Shown: positions 1,223 to 31,013 of the stretch, piece after piece | Position numbering within the stretch: the stretch's first letter is position 1 | Layout of the letters: every line of letters starts with the position of its first letter | Source: a virus | Length of the DNA: 31,094 bases | Strand: one strand, 5' to 3' | Virus record (IMG/VR): IMGVR_UViG_3300045135_000959 | Span: 1 to 31,094 of that record | The notes under the pieces: generated by a model | What the model was told of the DNA's origin: nothing | What the model saw: only the letters and a program-made list of their open reading frames with translations | The model's database searches: none | Made by a program: the position numbers and the translations under genes

Positions 1223-4200
1223 TTATTTTTTGCCGTCGCCTTTAGGCCTTGATTCCGGGAATCGTTTGTACATATCCTCTAAAGCTTCCTTCTCTTTTTC
1301 AGCCTTTTTTCTAGCTCTAGTTTCAGCGGCTTTCTTTTTACCTTCTTCTTTACGTTGCTCTTTAGCATTCGTCTTGATCAGATCGTGCTCTTCGTTTGTA
1401 ACACCAACATCCCATGTTTTCCAGCCAAGTGCTAATGCTATACGCTGCCATGCTTCGTTTCTTGAATCTAATGCTTCAGAGTAAGAATTGATAATATCCA
1501 CCATTCTATCCATAGGAACGTTAGCCGCACCTGAAACCAATGAACCTATAATAGAATACGCAGGGCTTAAATTAATGCGCCCGTCTTTTGCAACATCAAA
1601 GCCGCGTGCTTTAAGAACATCTTCCTCAAATTTCTTGGTTTGAATTGCGGCATAGATTTTTCTATATTTAGAACCAATTGGTGGGGATAGGCTTAGCGCT
1701 GCTCCAAGTGTATAAGCATGATCGGCCATGAATCCTTTTTCCTCTTGCTTAAAGTATTCCGTAATAGTATTCTTTATAGTAGCAAGAACAGCGCCTTTAA
1801 CCCCACTACCCTTCAGAATAGAATCGGTCATGGAGTTTACAATTTTAAGAAGCCTAACGTTTTCTTTGTATTCCTTCTTTTCAAGCTCTTTAGCTGTCAT
1901 TCCACTTTCGTCCTCATCATCTTCAAAAGCAACTGCAAATAATGCGCTTTGTAATGCGGAGAATACAAAGTTTTGAACCGCGCCGTAATAGATAATTTTA
2001 GAAAGGTGGGTTTTAAAATCACCACGCCCATTTGCAATGTCCTGCATTGACTTTTTCATCAAGCGGGTATATTGCATAGGTGTGTTTTGGAACGCCAATA
2101 CTAAGCGACCTAGTGGGCTACGCTGCTCTTGGGATACTAAGTAAGGATCTGAAGATTGCTGAGCCTCATCAGCTGTTTTGCTAAAGTCTTCCCACGCCTT
2201 AGTTTCTGCCGCGCTTTGCTTCATACCTTGTTTCAGATATGTATTAACGCGGTTGCGGTAGAACGTTGATCCACCCATCGCAATAGCGAAACTATCCGCA
2301 ATCTGTGTTGGAGTAAAACCAATTTTCAATAAGTAAGCAATTACAGCAGATGCTTTGTTTTGAGCGCCATCGGCCATGTTCGCAATCTCTGCTTCGTTCA
2401 CATCAGTCTGTAGGCCAGAGCGGCGTTGCTTTAATTTATCAGAATTGAAAATGTAAGCAAAGTCTTTCCAGAATTGAGGCTGATTAGCAAATGCTGCAGC
2501 TGCTTTTATTGGGTTGTTGTCAGACCAGTTAATAAAGTTAGTTGCAGATAAGTTCTGCAATACAGCTGAACGTATGTTAAAGAACATGATTGCTCCAGTG
2601 GAGTTGTTCACCCAGTTCAACCATTGGTTCATTTGTCTGTTCATACCGGTAGGACGGTTACGCCCGTTGATCATGGAGTATAAAGAATCCTCCAATGCCT
2701 CTCTATGTCTAGTACCGTAAACCGCCTCAATTTTATTAAGGTTCTCAGGTGAGAATATCGCATCAGCATTTTCGATGAACTCTGCTAAATACTTTTTGCG
2801 GCCAACCTTTTCAGTCATGCTATTAAGATCCGAAACAATGGTATTTGACATCCAATGAGGCCCTGGTTCAACCCATGTGTCTTGGCGAGAAATAGCCTGC
2901 ATTGCATTACCTAACTCAATCAAACCTGGGAATTGATTGATTTCATTAATTAGGAATCTAACATCGTCTATGTCCATTCCCGGGATTTCAATGCCCTGCT
3001 GAGTCCACATGTATACACGCAACGCTTGGTCGTAAGTAAAATTAGTATTGCTAATTTTCTTTCCAAGCATTTTAAAGTATTTCTTATTTGCCTTTGCTAC
3101 AGCATGATATTCTCTGCGTATTTGTTGCTTAACAGCGTCAATTTGAGCAACGCCCCTGGTGTATGGGTCAATCAATTTTTCTTCAACCCATTTTTGATCA
3201 GCTTCGCCTTGTCTGCCTTTTCCGGCAAATGTATATGCTGTTAAGCCTCTAAAGTCTTCTGCGGATGCTGGAACAAACAATCTATATTTACCCTTTTTCT
3301 CACCCTGCATTTGAGCCTGCACTCTAGAATAAACCTTAGTAGCAGAAACACCTTTTGTGCGCTCAATCATTTCATTTAGTTCTTGACTGAGGCCTTTGCT
3401 AAATTTAATACTAGACTGTTCTAGACCGCTATTAACTTGATTAACAAAATCAGAAGGCAGCATTTCATCATACCCTAGATTGTCAGTGTTGATTTCGTAG
3501 AAGCGTCCTTTGTAGTCCTCGCGATATTTAGCGGCACTTTCCTGTACGCTATCCCATGTTTTAGTAACAATAAAATCAGCCAATGATCTTTCCGCTCTAG
3601 CGCGATTTCGTTTAACGGCGATATCCCGACTAGTGTTAACATGGATCATGTGAATTTCAAAACCCGCGTCCTCAAGAGCCTTCATCTTCTTGGTTGTAGC
3701 ATTATAAGAAGCGCCGGTTCCGTCAACGATCATACTTTCTTTAGCTGCAGTATTTCTAGCTAAATCTTCCTCGGCAGCCTTGCGGGCTTTCCATCCAAGC
3801 TTGGCGCGAAGGGATCGCTGTTCTTTATCGTATGTTTTTTCGTCTGTAGGTAAGCCCGCTTCTTCTATGTACTTTTCTAAGTACGGATCCTGATTAATCA
3901 AGCGGTATCCTTTTTCAATAAGCCCAAGCCCTTTTACAATACTTGACTTACCGGCGCCTGGTCCACCAACCATAAAGATTGCCCTTGGGTTGGTTGACGA
4001 AAACTTAATAGAAGGCTTAATAATGTTTTTTGCAGCGTGAGCTTTTGACCAGTTAATTCCTATTTTTTGAGTATAAGCTTCTACTTCGGCTTTTTTATTC
4101 AAATGCTCTTGCAATGTCTCTAGCGGTGCGGAGCCATTAACAAACTCCTCTATAGTTCTAGAGGCTATTGTCGTAGAATAAACTTTTGATTTTGTAGCAT

Positions 4201-25956: not shown

Positions 25957-26228
25957 TATTTAGATCGTCTTTCAGCAAAGCCTTTAAAAGCTTCGGTGGT
26001 TTCTTCTTTTGGTTTATTCTCAAGTATACGCTCTTCTTCTTCTATCCTAGATAGTATTTCAAAAGCGTCAAATATTGCCAGTTTTTTAGTTGCAGCGGCA
26101 TTTTTCAACCTGTCAGCGGAAATATCATCCCCACTATCAACTATCTTTTCCTCAGCTACCTTAATCAGTTCATCAACTGCTTTGCGTCCAGCTTGGATTA
26201 TATTCTTCTTCGTCTCCTTGATATTCAT
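25956..26228 (-). CDS. Small terminase-like protein (candidate)
   Basis: A 90-aa helical, charged protein directly before TerL, where TerS normally lies. It holds SADRLKNAAATKKLAIFDAF (residues 37-56) then a helix ILSRIEEEERIL. I recall this pattern in marine phages before TerL but without a proven role. No clear helix-turn-helix is visible, and 90 aa is short for a TerS, so recognition of packaging DNA may be done elsewhere. It overlaps the end of the preceding gene by 56 nt and is coupled to TerL by TAATG. Confidence 0.55.
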   Translation of the reverse strand: MNIKETKKNIIQAGRKAVDELIKVAEEKIVDSGDDISADRLKNAAATKKLAIFDAFEILSRIEEEERILENKPKEETTEAFKGFAERRSK

Positions 26229-26775
26229 ATTTGATTGTAATTAGATTTGATGGGATACGATATAATCTCTCTTTCTCAATATGGAACTCATATTCGGTTC
26301 CCTGCTTAAAACCGACAAGCTCGCCCTGAGCAACGGTTCCGTCAGAATACTTGACAATTCCAATCCCTGGTTTTTCGTGATCCATTGAAAACATTTTAGT
26401 TTCCTTAATTGGTTTCACAAAACAGTAGCCAGGAAGGGAATGCCATTGACCATTCCTTTTATACGCAAAAACTTGATCTGGTTGCACGAAATAGAGGTCT
26501 TCAGTAAAATAGCTTCTGCTGTTCTTTTCGTTACCTCTAACGTCGTAAAAACGTCTAAAAACGTTATGATGAACAATTACCTCATCGCCATCTTGCAATC
26601 CAAGCTCCTCAACAATAGGAGAAGCCTTAATAACGCCAAGTCTGCTGGTATAAAAGTGGTTTTGTAATTCTGTATTTAGTATTAGCTTCTTATCGCCAAC
26701 CTGATGTTCGGCAGTTGTTCTGCCATTCTTAGGTTCAACAATATAGTTGAATAGCCCTTTACCATTCAAGGTCAT
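26173..26775 (-). CDS. Tandem GroES-like protein (candidate co-chaperonin)
   Basis: A 200-aa protein with what look like two GroES-like beta barrels. The first spans about 8-106, with LFNYIVEP at the start, a loop near 20-40, DGDEVIVHHNVFRRFYD at 62-78 (compare GroES GDxVIF) and DLYFVQPDQVFAY at its end. The second spans about 116-183, with GYCFVKPI, GIGIVKYSDG, GELVGFKQGTEYEF (150-165) and LYRIPSNLITI at the end, as in the GroES C-terminal strand. It may act on the host GroEL to fold phage capsid proteins, as T4 gp31 does. A TTG start at 26781 is possible; the ATG at 26775 is preferred. It overlaps the preceding gene end. The similarity is by eye and could be a generic barrel. Confidence 0.55.
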   Translation of the reverse strand: MTLNGKGLFNYIVEPKNGRTTAEHQVGDKKLILNTELQNHFYTSRLGVIKASPIVEELGLQDGDEVIVHHNVFRRFYDVRGNEKNSRSYFTEDLYFVQPDQVFAYKRNGQWHSLPGYCFVKPIKETKMFSMDHEKPGIGIVKYSDGTVAQGELVGFKQGTEYEFHIEKERLYRIPSNLITIKYEYQGDEEEYNPSWTQSS

Positions 26776-26980
26776 ACTCAATAGCTACAGCCATGTTCTT
26801 GTTAAAGTCTTTCCACGGCATTACTAAATCTCCTTTTTGAATATAGATAGAGTACTTTTCTTCCTCTTCTATAATATTAACTATAGAATGGCCACCATAC
26901 ACTTCCTGTCCAACAGAATAGTGCATGGCGCCATTTTTATAGTCAGGTCCGATGCTTATCTTACGAATTAGCTGTTGCAT
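26759..26980 (-). CDS. Small protein of unknown function (73 aa)
   Basis: From the ATG at 26980 this reads a 73-aa protein beginning MQQLIRKISIGPDYKNGAMH, with a mainly beta-type pattern (VYGGHSIVNI, KYSIYIQKGDLVMPWKD) and an acidic end. The frame is open to 27055, but the longer form would have a basic N terminus lying wholly inside the upstream gene; the 26980 start, overlapping it by only 20 nt, is preferred. I do not recognise a named family. The GPDYK-AMHYSVGQ opening resembles small proteins before terminase in Bacteroidota phages, from recollection. No catalytic residues are apparent. Confidence 0.65.
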   Translation of the reverse strand: MQQLIRKISIGPDYKNGAMHYSVGQEVYGGHSIVNIIEEEEKYSIYIQKGDLVMPWKDFNKNMAVAIEYDLEW

Positions 26981-27257: not shown

Positions 27258-27575
27258 TTAGCAGTTCCACTTTCGGCGCGCTGCTAAACCGCGTTCGCTT
27301 TTCCAGCCCTTTGAGCGTGCGCAGAACGATTTACGTCTTTTAGCCGCTTTGCTATCAGGGTCTAGTTTTGACGGTGGAGTAGTTACTGCAGTCTGCAATT
27401 TACTACCTGGATTGTCACGGCGGTACTTTTTTACGCCTTTTTCTGTCATACCACCCCCAGCGTCAGCTCCTGTACCGCCACCTTTTTTAACTTCGGCGTA
27501 GTTACCTTCTGACTTTTTGCGAGATGGTGCATCACCTTTTTTCTTAAACGGTGAATTGTGTTGTACGTATGCCAT
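27258..27575 (-). CDS. Basic Lys/Arg-rich small protein, DUF6321-like
   Basis: A 105-aa basic protein. An SPFKKKG motif lies at 8-14. The C-terminal part holds MTEKGVKKYRRDNPGSKLQT (43-62), KAAKRRKSFCARS (77-89) and an ending RRKWNC. This is the pattern I recall for a small protein widespread in marine phages (DUF6321-type), where the last segment often contains more residues between the FCAR and the RKW.C motifs. Two conserved Cys (86 and 105) and many basic residues suggest nucleic-acid contact or packaging in the virion. Function is not established, and the DUF name is from memory. It begins 1 nt after the 38-aa gene. Confidence 0.7.
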   Translation of the reverse strand: MAYVQHNSPFKKKGDAPSRKKSEGNYAEVKKGGGTGADAGGGMTEKGVKKYRRDNPGSKLQTAVTTPPSKLDPDSKAAKRRKSFCARSKGWKSERGLAARRKWNC

Positions 27576-27576
27576 C

Positions 27577-27693
27577 TTACTTAGTGTTTGTTTTTTTAGT
27601 GATAGGTACGCAGTTTGGAACTTTTTTACCGTTCTTCTCCTTCATACCTATCGCTGTATATCCTTCCCAGCAAGATTTATTCTTACCTTTCAT
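27577..27693 (-). CDS. 38-aa CW..GY peptide
   Basis: A small gene between two larger ones. From ATG 27693 to TAA 27577 it reads 38 residues: MKGKNKSCWEGYTAIGMKEK, then NGKKVPNCVPITKKTNTK. The core CWxGYxxIGMKxKNGKKVPNCVP is a pattern I recall from small domains and peptides in cyanophages and other marine phages; two Cys (residues 8 and 28) are spaced 20 apart. It starts 2 nt after the stop of the 587-aa gene and ends 1 nt before the next ATG, which supports a real gene. Function unknown. Confidence 0.75.
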   Translation of the reverse strand: MKGKNKSCWEGYTAIGMKEKNGKKVPNCVPITKKTNTK

Positions 27694-27695
27694 AA

Positions 27696-29459
27696 TTACT
27701 TAAAGTATCCCTTTTTCAATGGTGACTTGCCTTTCATGCCAACATTAGACTGGTAACGCATTTGTGCGGCACTAACCAATGAATTAGACTGGCGATCTTT
27801 TTTGTCAAGCGTTGGCGTTCCGTCAACCAACGGCGCACTTGTTCTATTATAAGAAGAACGCGGAGCTGTGCCAGTATTAGCCTGAATATTTGTGGCTGTA
27901 TTTTTATTAGCCGCAACTACTTTAGCGTTTTTCTGTTCGGTTAAAGCCTCACTTAAGTCGCTAATTTCCTGAGTGCTCATACCAGTGCCGTTAACACCTT
28001 TGTAATCAGGTTTTTGCATATTAGTAGGTCTAAGTGTTGGCGCAGCAGACTCTTTAATGTCAATTGAAGCTGTTTTGCGAGGAGCGTTTATTACAGTCTG
28101 CCCCGCCTTCATTTCCTCTTTAGTTTCTTGTCGCTCAGCACGCTTTGCTTTAGCGTTATCTACAACACTCTGCGCACGATCCTTCCATGTTTTTCTTGGC
28201 GCAGTTTCTCCGCTTGCAGCTGCACCAGTGCCAGCATCAGAAATAGATCCCTTAGGCGAGTTTGTCAAGCCTTGGCCTTTTGCTGCTGCTTCTCCCATTT
28301 CCACAGCCTTAATTTGATTAGCTATGTTTTTATCAGTAGGCGCATTAAGATCAGGGCTCATTAAAACTTTTGTTTTACCTGTCTCGGCACTTCCAGCTGA
28401 TTTTCCAGAAGCAAGACTAGCGCTCGCCGCAGGATTAATATCCGGCGTAGATAGTTTAGGCGTTTCAAATCGACCTTCTGCGCTTATCAGGTTTTTAGAA
28501 CCAGTGCTATTTACGGAATTTGTTTTAGCTCTCCCAGCTGATCTGGCGTCTAATCCAGAACCGGTTGATTCGCTTCCGCTGCCGACAACATTCAAGCGAG
28601 AATAATCGCCGCCAAGGTTCTTCTTAGTTTGTTCAAGTGCGGCAGTACCCTTCATTGTAGAAGCGTCGTACTTGTCCATATCCTTCTTGGTGTATACTTT
28701 GTCACTACCAGAAGCGCCTTGGTTCAATTGATCCATAGAGCGACCTGTGTCCATAATACGAGTCTGCTGATCAGAAATACCGCGAGACTCGTTATATAAC
28801 GCTTGTTCTTTGTCGCTTAGCTCTGCGCGTCCGGTCATCACATCACGGCGTCCCTTCCAGCCTTCCGCCCATGTTCCACCTTCTTGGCGAATGTTACGAG
28901 CTTCTTGTTTAGCAATATTGCGAAGGTCCTTGCGGGCCTCTTGACGTCCCCAACGTTCATTTTGTTTTTGCACGCGGCGGTTCCAACGGTTTTCCCAAGG
29001 TGTGATTGCGTCAGTTTCATGTACAATACCCGGGGTGTACGATGTATCCTTGCCTGGCTCAGTATATGTTTCCGTCTTTTTAACTTGTGTAACAACGTCG
29101 GCTTCGCGACCAGTGTTGCCTTCATATCCAGGGAAACGCTTTTTCAACCCCTCTACGGTTCCGTGACCGGCGGCTGCCATTTGCTCATACGTGCGCCCTC
29201 CGCTAAGCAATTCGGTCATTTTATTTTCCCAAGGCTTGCCAGCGGTGCCACCGCCAATTGCATCAGGCGTGGTAAGATTTGCGCCAGCTGTGGTTTCGTC
29301 AACAATTACTTCTCGCTGCTTTTCTACCGGTTCACCTTCGGTTACAACCTCAATTTGTTTAGCCGGAGACTCTACCTTGCCTGTTTTAAGGGTAGGCTGA
29401 TGTACTGCATCTTTTCCCCATGCGCCGTTGCGCACTCTGTTTGTAATAGGCTTATTCAT
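27696..29459 (-). CDS. Disordered 587-aa protein with SPLK motif
   Basis: A 587-aa protein of low complexity, rich in Ala, Gly, Ser, Lys, Thr and Glu, with few hydrophobic stretches. A basic/aromatic helical patch (PWENRWNRRVQKQNERW near 153-169) interrupts long polar regions. It has SPAKQ near residue 31 and ends in KSPLKKGYFK, the motif shared with neighbouring proteins. No enzyme motif is seen. A virion cargo, DNA-organising or assembly role is possible, and I do not recognise a family. The gene is coupled by TAATG to the preceding one. Confidence 0.7.
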   Translation of the reverse strand: MNKPITNRVRNGAWGKDAVHQPTLKTGKVESPAKQIEVVTEGEPVEKQREVIVDETTAGANLTTPDAIGGGTAGKPWENKMTELLSGGRTYEQMAAAGHGTVEGLKKRFPGYEGNTGREADVVTQVKKTETYTEPGKDTSYTPGIVHETDAITPWENRWNRRVQKQNERWGRQEARKDLRNIAKQEARNIRQEGGTWAEGWKGRRDVMTGRAELSDKEQALYNESRGISDQQTRIMDTGRSMDQLNQGASGSDKVYTKKDMDKYDASTMKGTAALEQTKKNLGGDYSRLNVVGSGSESTGSGLDARSAGRAKTNSVNSTGSKNLISAEGRFETPKLSTPDINPAASASLASGKSAGSAETGKTKVLMSPDLNAPTDKNIANQIKAVEMGEAAAKGQGLTNSPKGSISDAGTGAAASGETAPRKTWKDRAQSVVDNAKAKRAERQETKEEMKAGQTVINAPRKTASIDIKESAAPTLRPTNMQKPDYKGVNGTGMSTQEISDLSEALTEQKNAKVVAANKNTATNIQANTGTAPRSSYNRTSAPLVDGTPTLDKKDRQSNSLVSAAQMRYQSNVGMKGKSPLKKGYFK

Positions 29460-29851
29460 TATAGCTCTAGGTTCAAATTATCGTATTCTTCTTGGCTCTC
29501 GTTGATGTCGTTTGTTTCATCTTCAAGAGTTTGATCTTCATTTACTTGGTCAGCTTTACTTTCGTCAAAGGGGTCTAAATCCGCAGTTTTTGGTTTTGGA
29601 GCTGCAGGCGGTGGCGTAGTGGGCTTTGGACGATTTGTTTCAGCCGGCTCAAGGTGGCCTGCTAAATCATTAAAGCTACTAGCTGCATAGGCCGCGCCGG
29701 CAACAAGAGCTTCATTCATTTTCAGCGGAGACTTACTGCGCTGTGTAATAGGGGTGGTCGCAGAGGATTTAGTGGTAGCGTTTCCTTGAGGGTTGTTCAA
29801 ACCCGCACGACCGTGTAACCCCGTAAAGTTTTTCATTCTAAAGTTACCCAT
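29459..29851 (-). CDS. Small acidic-tailed protein with SPLK motif
   Basis: A 130-aa protein: short N-terminal part MGNFRMKNFTGLHGRAG, then KSPLKMNEALVAGAAYAASS (residues about 40-59), a Pro/Thr-rich middle, and a very acidic C terminus. The SPLK-then-Ala-rich helix resembles small proteins seen in Bacteroidota phages. Frame is open 14 codons further upstream, but the ATG at 29851 overlaps the zincin stop by 8 nt (ATGGGTAA), the same geometry as in the lysis genes, so it is preferred. Function unknown; a virion-associated or targeting role is possible because the motif recurs nearby. Confidence 0.65.
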   Translation of the reverse strand: MGNFRMKNFTGLHGRAGLNNPQGNATTKSSATTPITQRSKSPLKMNEALVAGAAYAASSFNDLAGHLEPAETNRPKPTTPPPAAPKPKTADLDPFDESKADQVNEDQTLEDETNDINESQEEYDNLNLEL

Positions 29852-30188
29852 TGTATGCTTCTTTTTCCCATTCAAAATCAGGGTGACCTTCATTCATTTG
29901 GGCACGTTTATATACTTTCATAGGAGACTTAGTATCACGCTTCCACATTACCTCGTTGTCGTTATACTGCAATCTCCCTTGTTGCATCTGCTCTAAATGC
30001 ACTTTTTCATGAGCTACCGCCTCTTCTTTTTGTTCTGGCGATAAGTTCTTATCTACAAAAATAGTACCGTCACGATTAGCTTCTGCCATAATGTTTCCGT
30101 CTAAAGACTTTTGGAAAACAGGCGTGTCGTGCGTCGATGTAGCATCGATACCAAACAATGTAGTTTTATCTTTAAGCTTGAACCCCAT
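29844..30188 (-). CDS. Minimal zinc metallopeptidase-like protein (HEKVH)
   Basis: A 114-aa protein with an HExxH zinc-binding motif, AVAHEKVHLEQM (His80, Glu81, His84), in a predicted helix. A later Glu (FEWEKEAYN, near the end) may be the third ligand. It is much shorter than usual peptidases, so it is either a minimal zincin or a non-catalytic relative. SPMKVYKR near residues 88-95 matches the SP[LFM]K motif of neighbours. A role in virion-protein processing or host-protein cleavage is possible. It is coupled by TAATG to the preceding 44-aa gene. The activity is unproven. Confidence 0.65.
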   Translation of the reverse strand: MGFKLKDKTTLFGIDATSTHDTPVFQKSLDGNIMAEANRDGTIFVDKNLSPEQKEEAVAHEKVHLEQMQQGRLQYNDNEVMWKRDTKSPMKVYKRAQMNEGHPDFEWEKEAYNG

Positions 30189-30322: not shown

Positions 30323-30759
30323 CGCTCGTTATCTTTAATCATATTGTCGATAGCCGTATTATAGACTTTATCTGTATATGATTTGTTTTTGTAAAACTTA
30401 CTTGATTCCTTAACAGGTATATCCTCATAACCAAGCAATATATTATATATGCGAGTTATAAGGCGCTTTGCTTTAGGTGATACCTTGTAGACCGAATACT
30501 TAACTGTAGTTCTATTACGATGCTTAAATACATCAATCCACCCTTCTCTTCGCAGACGTTCCCATCTGTTTTTATCCCAAGAATATGTGGTTACACCTTC
30601 TATAAAATCATTACGTGTAAAATACTTTTTGCAATCCAGATAGATAAGCAGCTCTAGATCCGCGTCTAAGATATCATAGGACTTGCACGCCCATTTGCGC
30701 ACAAGCCTATAATATTTAAATAAATTTAGTTCACGTAAATCGTCTGGTTCTAACCTCAT
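30319..30759 (-). CDS. Winged-helix-like protein (candidate)
   Basis: A 146-aa basic protein from the ATG at 30759, which overlaps the GroES-like stop as ATGA. The frame is open to 30813, but that would add a Cys/Arg-rich N terminus in the shadow of the GroES-like gene, so the coupled start is preferred. The region YFTRNDFIEGVTTYSWDKNR, WERLRREGWIDVFKHRNR and VSPKAKRLITRIYNILLG looks like helix-turn-helix plus wing (recognition helix before the RRxGWI turn). A transcription or packaging-DNA role is possible. No family is certain. Confidence 0.55.
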   Translation of the reverse strand: MRLEPDDLRELNLFKYYRLVRKWACKSYDILDADLELLIYLDCKKYFTRNDFIEGVTTYSWDKNRWERLRREGWIDVFKHRNRTTVKYSVYKVSPKAKRLITRIYNILLGYEDIPVKESSKFYKNKSYTDKVYNTAIDNMIKDNER

Positions 30760-31013
30760 TCTACAATAACAACATCGCCGACGGTAATAACGTGGTAAAG
30801 CTTTTCTTGCCATTCAATACCGTGACCAGCGTGCTTATCGTAGCGAATTGTATCACCAGGCTTCAAACCTTGTACTTTATCGCCAACGCTGATAATGTTA
30901 GCCCTTAGGTATCTAACGTCGTTGTTTTGTTTTTCAGTTAATTCGAGACCCCCAACCTTCTTGGGAGCCTCTTTAATTTTGTCAATTACAATGTAGTGGT
31001 TAATTGCTTGCAT
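30756..31013 (-). CDS. GroES-like co-chaperonin (phage-encoded)
   Basis: An 85-aa protein close to GroES in pattern and only slightly shorter than the 97 aa of GroES. A beta strand IVIDKIKE opens it, a mobile-loop-like part KKVGGLELTEKQ at about 18-29 has the GGxxL hydrophobic tripeptide used to bind GroEL, then VGDKVQGLKPGDTIRYDKHAGHGIE and a closing VGDVVIVE. A phage GroES, like T4 gp31, would cap host GroEL for capsid-protein folding. It is the first complete gene here and is coupled by ATGA to the winged-helix candidate. GroEL is not encoded in the window. Confidence 0.85.
   Translation of the reverse strand: MQAINHYIVIDKIKEAPKKVGGLELTEKQNNDVRYLRANIISVGDKVQGLKPGDTIRYDKHAGHGIEWQEKLYHVITVGDVVIVE

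Follow-up and report, generated by a model that had tools for sequence, protein, structure and literature searches.

A short SP[LFM]K-type motif shared by late accessory proteins of a clade of uncultured tailed phages: a candidate virion sorting tag

A contig of 31 kb (31,094 nucleotides, analysed at full length and hereafter the window) represents the late region of an uncultured tailed phage, encoded on its minus strand. Four adjacent genes there, located between those for GroES and the terminase, encode proteins that carry the short motif SP[LFM]K at different positions. The question raised by this locus is whether the recurrence is accidental or represents a short linear tag, as proposed in an earlier note on this DNA, and, if it is a tag, whether it serves for packaging into the head, for binding to the scaffold or portal, or for cleavage by the zincin encoded in the same cluster. 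Homologue searches with the terminase and the portal identified, as named relatives, the Flavobacterium elemo phages, the Cellulophaga phi38:1 and phi18:3 types, Maribacter phage Panino, Tenacibaculum phage Gundel_1 and one environmental genome. Marine genomes that encode GroEL along with structural homologues of phi38:1 have been described as putative Flavobacteriaceae phages (Nishimura et al., 2017; PMC5332604), and the window phage probably belongs to the same wider group as group 2 of that study, with which it has in common the phi38:1 structural homologues and the chaperonin genes; however, no tag is mentioned in the relevant passages of that paper, and phi38:1 itself lacks the tagged island described here. 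The GroES gene of the window (85 aa) occupies positions 30756-31013 and, in addition, a 202-aa protein encoded next to the terminase (26173-26781) matches a GroES-type PHROG (2.5e-10); in the named relatives, a co-chaperonin is annotated beside the terminase as well.

Of the 24 window proteins scanned, these four have exactly one SP[LFM]K each (Table 1), and neither SP[LFM]K nor SPAK is present in any of the other 20. All the SP[LFM]K and SPAK sites named in the earlier note, at their varied positions, were located on the minus strand. Per-protein shuffling yields an expectation of 0.032 SP[LFM]K sites in the four genes, with four or more sites in none of 5000 shuffles and one site in every one of the four genes in none of 20,000; the Poisson chance comes to 4e-8 over the four genes and to 9e-5 over the entire window, values that serve as guides only, homologous sites being non-independent. 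Given that the pattern was picked after inspection of the data, replication in relatives is needed.

Table 1. Tag sites and related features of the four adjacent genes (window coordinates)
Feature	Position	Strand	Basis
105-aa DUF6321 protein (Pfam PF19846), N-terminal tag MAYVQHNSPFKKKG	27258..27575	-	Pfam 7.4e-13; homologue alignment
SPFK, residues 8-11 of the 105-aa protein	27543..27554	-	sequence; homologues
587-aa low-complexity protein with N-terminal PITNR, SPAK and C-terminal KSPLKKGYFK	27696..29459	-	sequence; positional equivalents
SPLK, residues 579-582 of the 587-aa protein, C-terminal tag	27714..27725	-	
SPAK, residues 31-34 of the 587-aa protein	29358..29369	-	
PITNR, residues 4-8 of the 587-aa protein, second tag element	29436..29450	-	
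130-aa protein with PITQRSKSPLKMN (listed as a 144-aa ORF from 29893)	29459..29851	-	sequence; homologues
SPLK, residues 55-58 of the 144-aa ORF (130-aa protein)	29720..29731	-	
PITQR in the 130/144-aa protein	29738..29752	-	
114-aa zincin (HEKVH), probable minigluzincin-like metallopeptidase	29844..30188	-	invariant residues; fold and profile matches
SPMK, zincin residues 88-91, part of the fold, probably no tag copy	29916..29927	-	predicted structure; homologues
MGFKLK, N-terminal tag of the zincin	30171..30188	-	aligned homologues; low pLDDT

For the 130/144-aa protein, the shorter reading adopted in the earlier note is preferable because the 14 codons that the 144-aa ORF has in addition lie, in a different frame, over the end of the zincin gene; the extra residues (LNGKKKH), which were considered as a repeated leader, are the zincin C-terminus read out of frame. 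The description of the four proteins as otherwise unrelated stands only in part, given that, beyond the SP[LFM]K common to all of them, the 587-aa and 130/144-aa proteins also have PITxR in common. In homologues of the 130/144-aa protein, SP[LFMA]K is found in 21 of 31 sequences, mostly within the block PITQ(K/R)(A/S)..SP.K(M/I)N..LV.G, and most of the remaining ones contain SACK at the equivalent place. The positional equivalents of the 587-aa protein, encoded upstream of DUF6321 genes, have in common PITxR/K N-termini and ...P[LM]KKGYFK C-termini, PITxR/K being present near the N-terminus in 28 of 87 such genes.

Replication was assessed in related contigs, which are partial and in which ORFs were called mechanically. 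In a motif-independent set of 80 loci sampled by terminase alone, the search against a shuffled background suggested in the earlier note revealed a large excess of SP[LFMA]K in late accessory proteins (41 sites vs 2.3 expected) and no excess in core packaging and structural proteins (9 vs 7.6). The same pattern holds in 16 long contigs, with 41 sites vs 4.2 expected in late accessory proteins, 2 vs 4.9 in core proteins and none vs 2.5 on the other strand. Starts of the [FY]K[MLQ] type were counted in the 80 loci, which are unbiased in this respect, several of the 16 long contigs having been picked via the MAFKMKG pattern, which biases their N-terminal counts; 39 such starts vs 0.8 expected are found in accessory proteins and 16 vs 1.7 in core proteins, the latter appearing to be largely terminases that begin with MYKQ, as in the 16 long contigs. 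Neither of the outcomes named in the earlier note as refuting the tag was observed: lysine-rich proteins, too, carry the motif more often than chance predicts, and homologues retain it. Across 225 related loci, SPLK, SPFK, SPMK and SPAK are 5 to 11 times as frequent as in shuffles (SPAK alone, 81 vs 10.6 expected), and SPIK, SPVK, SPYK and SPKK show no clear rise; in a larger set, SP[IVY]K occurs 33 times vs 12 expected.

In a redundancy-reduced set of 171 sites, the motif can be refined to [KNS]SP[LFMA]K[QM], with Q immediately after the motif lysine 6.3 times over composition and a hydrophobic residue favoured at position 3; the relaxed forms SALK and TPLK are enriched as well. Sites are N-terminal, internal or C-terminal (of 193 SP[LFM]K sites, 96 lie in the first 30 residues and 20 in the last 20, the others being internal), some proteins contain several copies, and only the MAFKMK-type part is strictly N-terminal. 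The recurring companions of the motif are MAFKMKG-type N-terminal starts (MAFKMKG itself on 141 entries collected by DNA pattern), PITxR/K, and C-terminal P[LM]KKGYFK (KSPLKKGYFK); PITxR and an [FY]K-type start are represented in the window as well (Table 1). Tagged proteins are rich in lysine (15.5% vs 8.3%) and poor in hydrophobic residues (24% vs 35%). Within SP[LFM]K, the P, L, F and K codons do not depart from background use, and serine is encoded by both TCN and AGY; selection thus acts at the protein level. The tag is selected as a peptide, sits mostly close to protein termini, accompanies passenger domains that are unrelated to one another, and is confined to the late accessory proteins of a single clade. 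Two loci (L103:7597-8001 and L104:1086-1655) encode small proteins that consist largely of repeated SPAKMYGGKKGDESKSK-type units, with up to four SPAK each, and a MAFKMKG-tagged 297-aa protein of AMKMK/PMKMK repeats, with a histone-H1- or protamine-like look, is encoded at positions 44221-45114 of contig G048 (L386).

The clade in question comprises phages whose terminase is at least 70% identical to that of the window; the tag set is absent from the sister groups and from the six named relatives. Loci whose terminases are 63-68% identical yielded no tags among 187 ORFs no longer than 700 aa; in the six named relatives, both the motif (1 vs 0.8 expected) and the N-terminal start (1 vs 0.6) are at chance level. 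Within about 30 kb searched in each of these relatives, the genes for the 105-, 587- and 144-aa proteins, the zincin and an 88-aa protein have no match, whereas the flanking genes have matches in most of the six. Searches from the opposite direction lead to the same clade: 48 of 50 contigs retrieved with the MAFKMKG pattern, and 49 of 50 retrieved with the terminase, the zincin or DUF6321, encode a terminase about 73-80% identical to that of the window, and the same capsid lineage accompanies the tag set in these 48 and 49 contigs. The MAFKMKG search has two exceptions, a contig of 120 kb that probably matched by chance and another of 40 kb. The tagged genes form an accessory island of a single clade, and the cultured relatives with MS/MS data lack them. 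Within the clade, 9 of 41 loci, represented by partial contig stretches, show no visible tags.

The 105-aa protein matches DUF6321 (PF19846) at 49.4 bits, above the gathering cut-off of 28.5. An alignment of the clade's DUF6321 proteins includes MAYVQHNSPFKKKG-DUF6321 and MAFQMTPSSPLLKKG-DUF6321 forms along with untagged ones that start, for example, with MPSKNAPSRKK; in homologues of the 105-aa protein, SP[FL] is retained, with lysine at position 4 or 5. Tag and passenger domain are thus separable, DUF6321 being found with and without the tag. In the predicted structure, residues 1-21 are disordered (pLDDT below 50) and the DUF6321 domain is ordered. Outside the window, the tag is carried by DUF5872 (1.8e-13), by an SLT transglycosylase with a match to phrog_342, 'internal virion protein with endolysin domain' (6e-8), by a PAP2-like protein slightly under the Pfam cut-off, and by a module containing the sequence FPSAYASGA. 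Matches of this last module and of DUF6321 fall at different positions of the same two families, phrog_727 and phrog_3477, which means that the two are fused in other phages. Cyanophage P-TIM68 has DUF6321 at the end of a protein of 427 aa whose gene adjoins the terminase genes; the N-terminus of this protein resembles, by eye only, the RDWF motif of DUF5872. Modules joined covalently in other phages are separate yet equally tagged in this clade. A PDB sequence search with the capsid protein and DUF6321 returned no match; DUF6321 is not named in the open-access literature searched, and DUF5872 is named there in one paper, on an algal virus.

The zincin requires separate consideration. In the aligned zincins, H60, E61, H64, W107 and E108 are invariant, the best Foldseek matches are abylysin and selecase (4jiu, 4qhi; prob 0.97 and 0.92, with weak E values of about 0.1), and the profile comparison with MJ1213 is weak (E 0.024), which together are consistent with a probable minigluzincin-like metallopeptidase. 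A tblastn search of the zincin against cultured phages gave no match. F3 and K4 are nearly invariant among 28 aligned zincins, an [FY]K[MLQ] start is present in 86 of 125 homologues, and residues 1-10 are mostly predicted with pLDDT below 50. The SPMK of this protein, listed in the earlier note as a copy of the motif, does not belong with the others: it lies in a confidently predicted hairpin past the HExxH helix, most homologues with that loop have SPAR and others lack the motif, and SPxK follows HExxH in only 15 of 125. It is part of the fold and probably no copy of the tag; the tag of the zincin is the N-terminal MGFKLK. The zincin was also considered as a capsid maturation protease and rejected in that role, being unmatched in the six relatives with homologous capsid genes. 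A second possible zincin is suggested by a HEVGH motif (THEVGHYVFDK) in the 2874-aa giant late protein, which also contains an AAA_33 / zeta-toxin-type kinase domain at residues 1950-2102 (window 3542-4000, minus strand; 5e-13 and 1.5e-9).

That the SP[LFM]K sites represent a short linear tag, as the earlier note had it, is well supported by the excess over shuffles, the recurrence in homologues, the coexistence of tagged and untagged DUF6321, the predicted disorder of the tag and its absence from core genes. With about even confidence, we interpret the sites in the 105-, 587- and 130-aa proteins as a modular sorting tag, which most likely loads accessory proteins into the virion. This interpretation is favoured by the enrichment in accessory late proteins and not in core proteins, by the match of the tagged transglycosylase to an internal virion protein family, by the fusion in other phages of passenger modules that are separate here, by the restriction to a clade with the same capsid lineage, and by the precedent of the capsid targeting sequence (CTS) of phage T4. 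Among the diverse internal proteins of T4, nothing but the CTS is conserved; its place is strictly N-terminal, the prohead protease gp21 cuts it off, and packaging is proven (PMC3012670, PMC9026906). The tag described here resembles it in that a short sequence alone is common to unrelated, often basic accessory proteins of one phage group; it differs in being N-terminal, internal or C-terminal, often multi-copy, and without sign of cleavage, and no sequence relation is claimed. Accordingly, we describe the tag as one that would work like the CTS and do not class it as a CTS, given that about half of the sites (96 of 193) are near the N-terminus, that there is no support for cleavage, and that packaging, established in T4, is inferred for the present phages. 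In the crassvirus phiCrAss001, a podovirus of Bacteroidetes, many virus-encoded proteins are stored in the capsid and tail and then ejected (PMC10172136), a likeness to the cargo postulated here; the phiCrAss001 cargo, however, consists of a few large conserved proteins, with no common short tag described in the corresponding passages. No comparable phage tag was found in the open-access literature.

Packaging into the head is, as a hypothesis, the best reading of these patterns. Under this scenario, the tag would dock on one common acceptor during head assembly, for which the acidic scaffold, the portal and the inner wall of the capsid are candidates; contact would be made by the hydrophobic position-3 residue and the position-4 lysine, and no cleavage would be required. 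The zincin, DUF6321, DUF5872, the transglycosylase and other passengers would travel in the virion and be delivered together with the DNA. The N-terminal part of the scaffold protein is, by sequence, strongly acidic, and one may speculate that it could hold the lysine-rich tags. More tentatively, and with somewhat less than even confidence, a general address system can be envisaged in which one particle acceptor binds the SP[LFMA]K-type peptide uncleaved, so that nearly any tagged protein becomes exchangeable virion cargo for the next host. The variable position of the tag, the four-residue core with its relaxed forms and the clade loci without visible tags count against a sorting tag.

Several other explanations have to be weighed. 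The tag could be a docking signal for a host protein, for the phage GroEL/GroES, or for an assembly or replication compartment, with the tagged proteins acting late in the cell and remaining unpackaged; tagged genes adjoin GroEL/GroES genes in several contigs, and the expression position is compatible with any late role, but sister phages with GroEL/GroES carry no tags, two tag clusters flank the structural genes on both sides, and a transglycosylase and a metallopeptidase would be odd as late cytoplasmic proteins, so that we consider this scenario rather unlikely. An SPKK-type DNA-binding element, through which basic tagged proteins would condense or coat the packaged genome, fits the lysine richness of these proteins, and the S-P-x-K core in lysine-rich disordered stretches resembles the SPKK of sperm-specific histones (PMC9903204). 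In that motif, however, position 3 is basic, whereas here it is hydrophobic; SP[KR][KR] is not enriched (14 vs 19.2 expected), which sets the sites apart from the SPKK class with S/T-P followed by basic positions 3 and 4, SPKK itself occurs 5 times vs 14 expected in the 225 related loci, and two of the four window proteins have a negative net charge, all of which makes this explanation improbable.

Trimming of internal proteins is common among phages, and cutting at the N-terminal and C-terminal sites would leave a clean core; a processing site at or after SPxK, used by the zincin or a prohead protease during maturation, could also invoke the removal of the CTS in T4 (PMC9026906). Cleavage by the zincin, which the earlier note had offered as one possible function, nevertheless lacks support: the zincin is itself an N-terminally tagged passenger, is unmatched in relatives with homologous capsid genes, and would face internal sites and multiple copies per protein; furthermore, in the 171-site set there is no conserved cleavage site or residue after the lysine beyond Q/M, and we regard processing as very improbable. 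A DNA- or RNA-level element, such as a recombination hotspot or a translation-start signal incidentally read as a peptide, could be suspected from MAFKMKG at gene starts, with the GCA and AAA bias that is frequent in start regions, but is disfavoured by the background codon use and by sites in the middle and at the ends of genes, which leaves it highly improbable. Chance or composition, that is, short low-complexity proteins combined with a post hoc pattern, may explain the zincin copy, which alone looks coincidental, and the pattern was indeed selected by eye; for the set of sites as a whole, the composition-preserving shuffles (0.03 expected) and the replication in a motif-blind locus sample refute this explanation and reduce its probability to a negligible level.

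If the tag loads virions, the cargo of hundreds of uncultured marine phages could be listed from sequence, with the zincin, DUF6321, DUF5872, the transglycosylase and many orphans as candidate early-infection effectors, and a natural capsid address system would exist besides that of T4. Mechanism aside, a short linear motif common to dozens of unrelated phage proteins is unusual, and its identification makes the roles of DUF6321 and DUF5872 testable.

With regard to the terminase, relatives of the window protein (L431-L462) are found in metagenome bins, many of which are labelled Bacteroidetes or Flavobacteriia, and also in archaeal and proteobacterial bins, where they probably represent mis-binned phage contigs. 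In the contigs of L155, L160, L198, L201, L208, L256 and L294, the terminase gene is in at least two pieces, some with in-frame stops, which may reflect introns, insertions or assembly errors.
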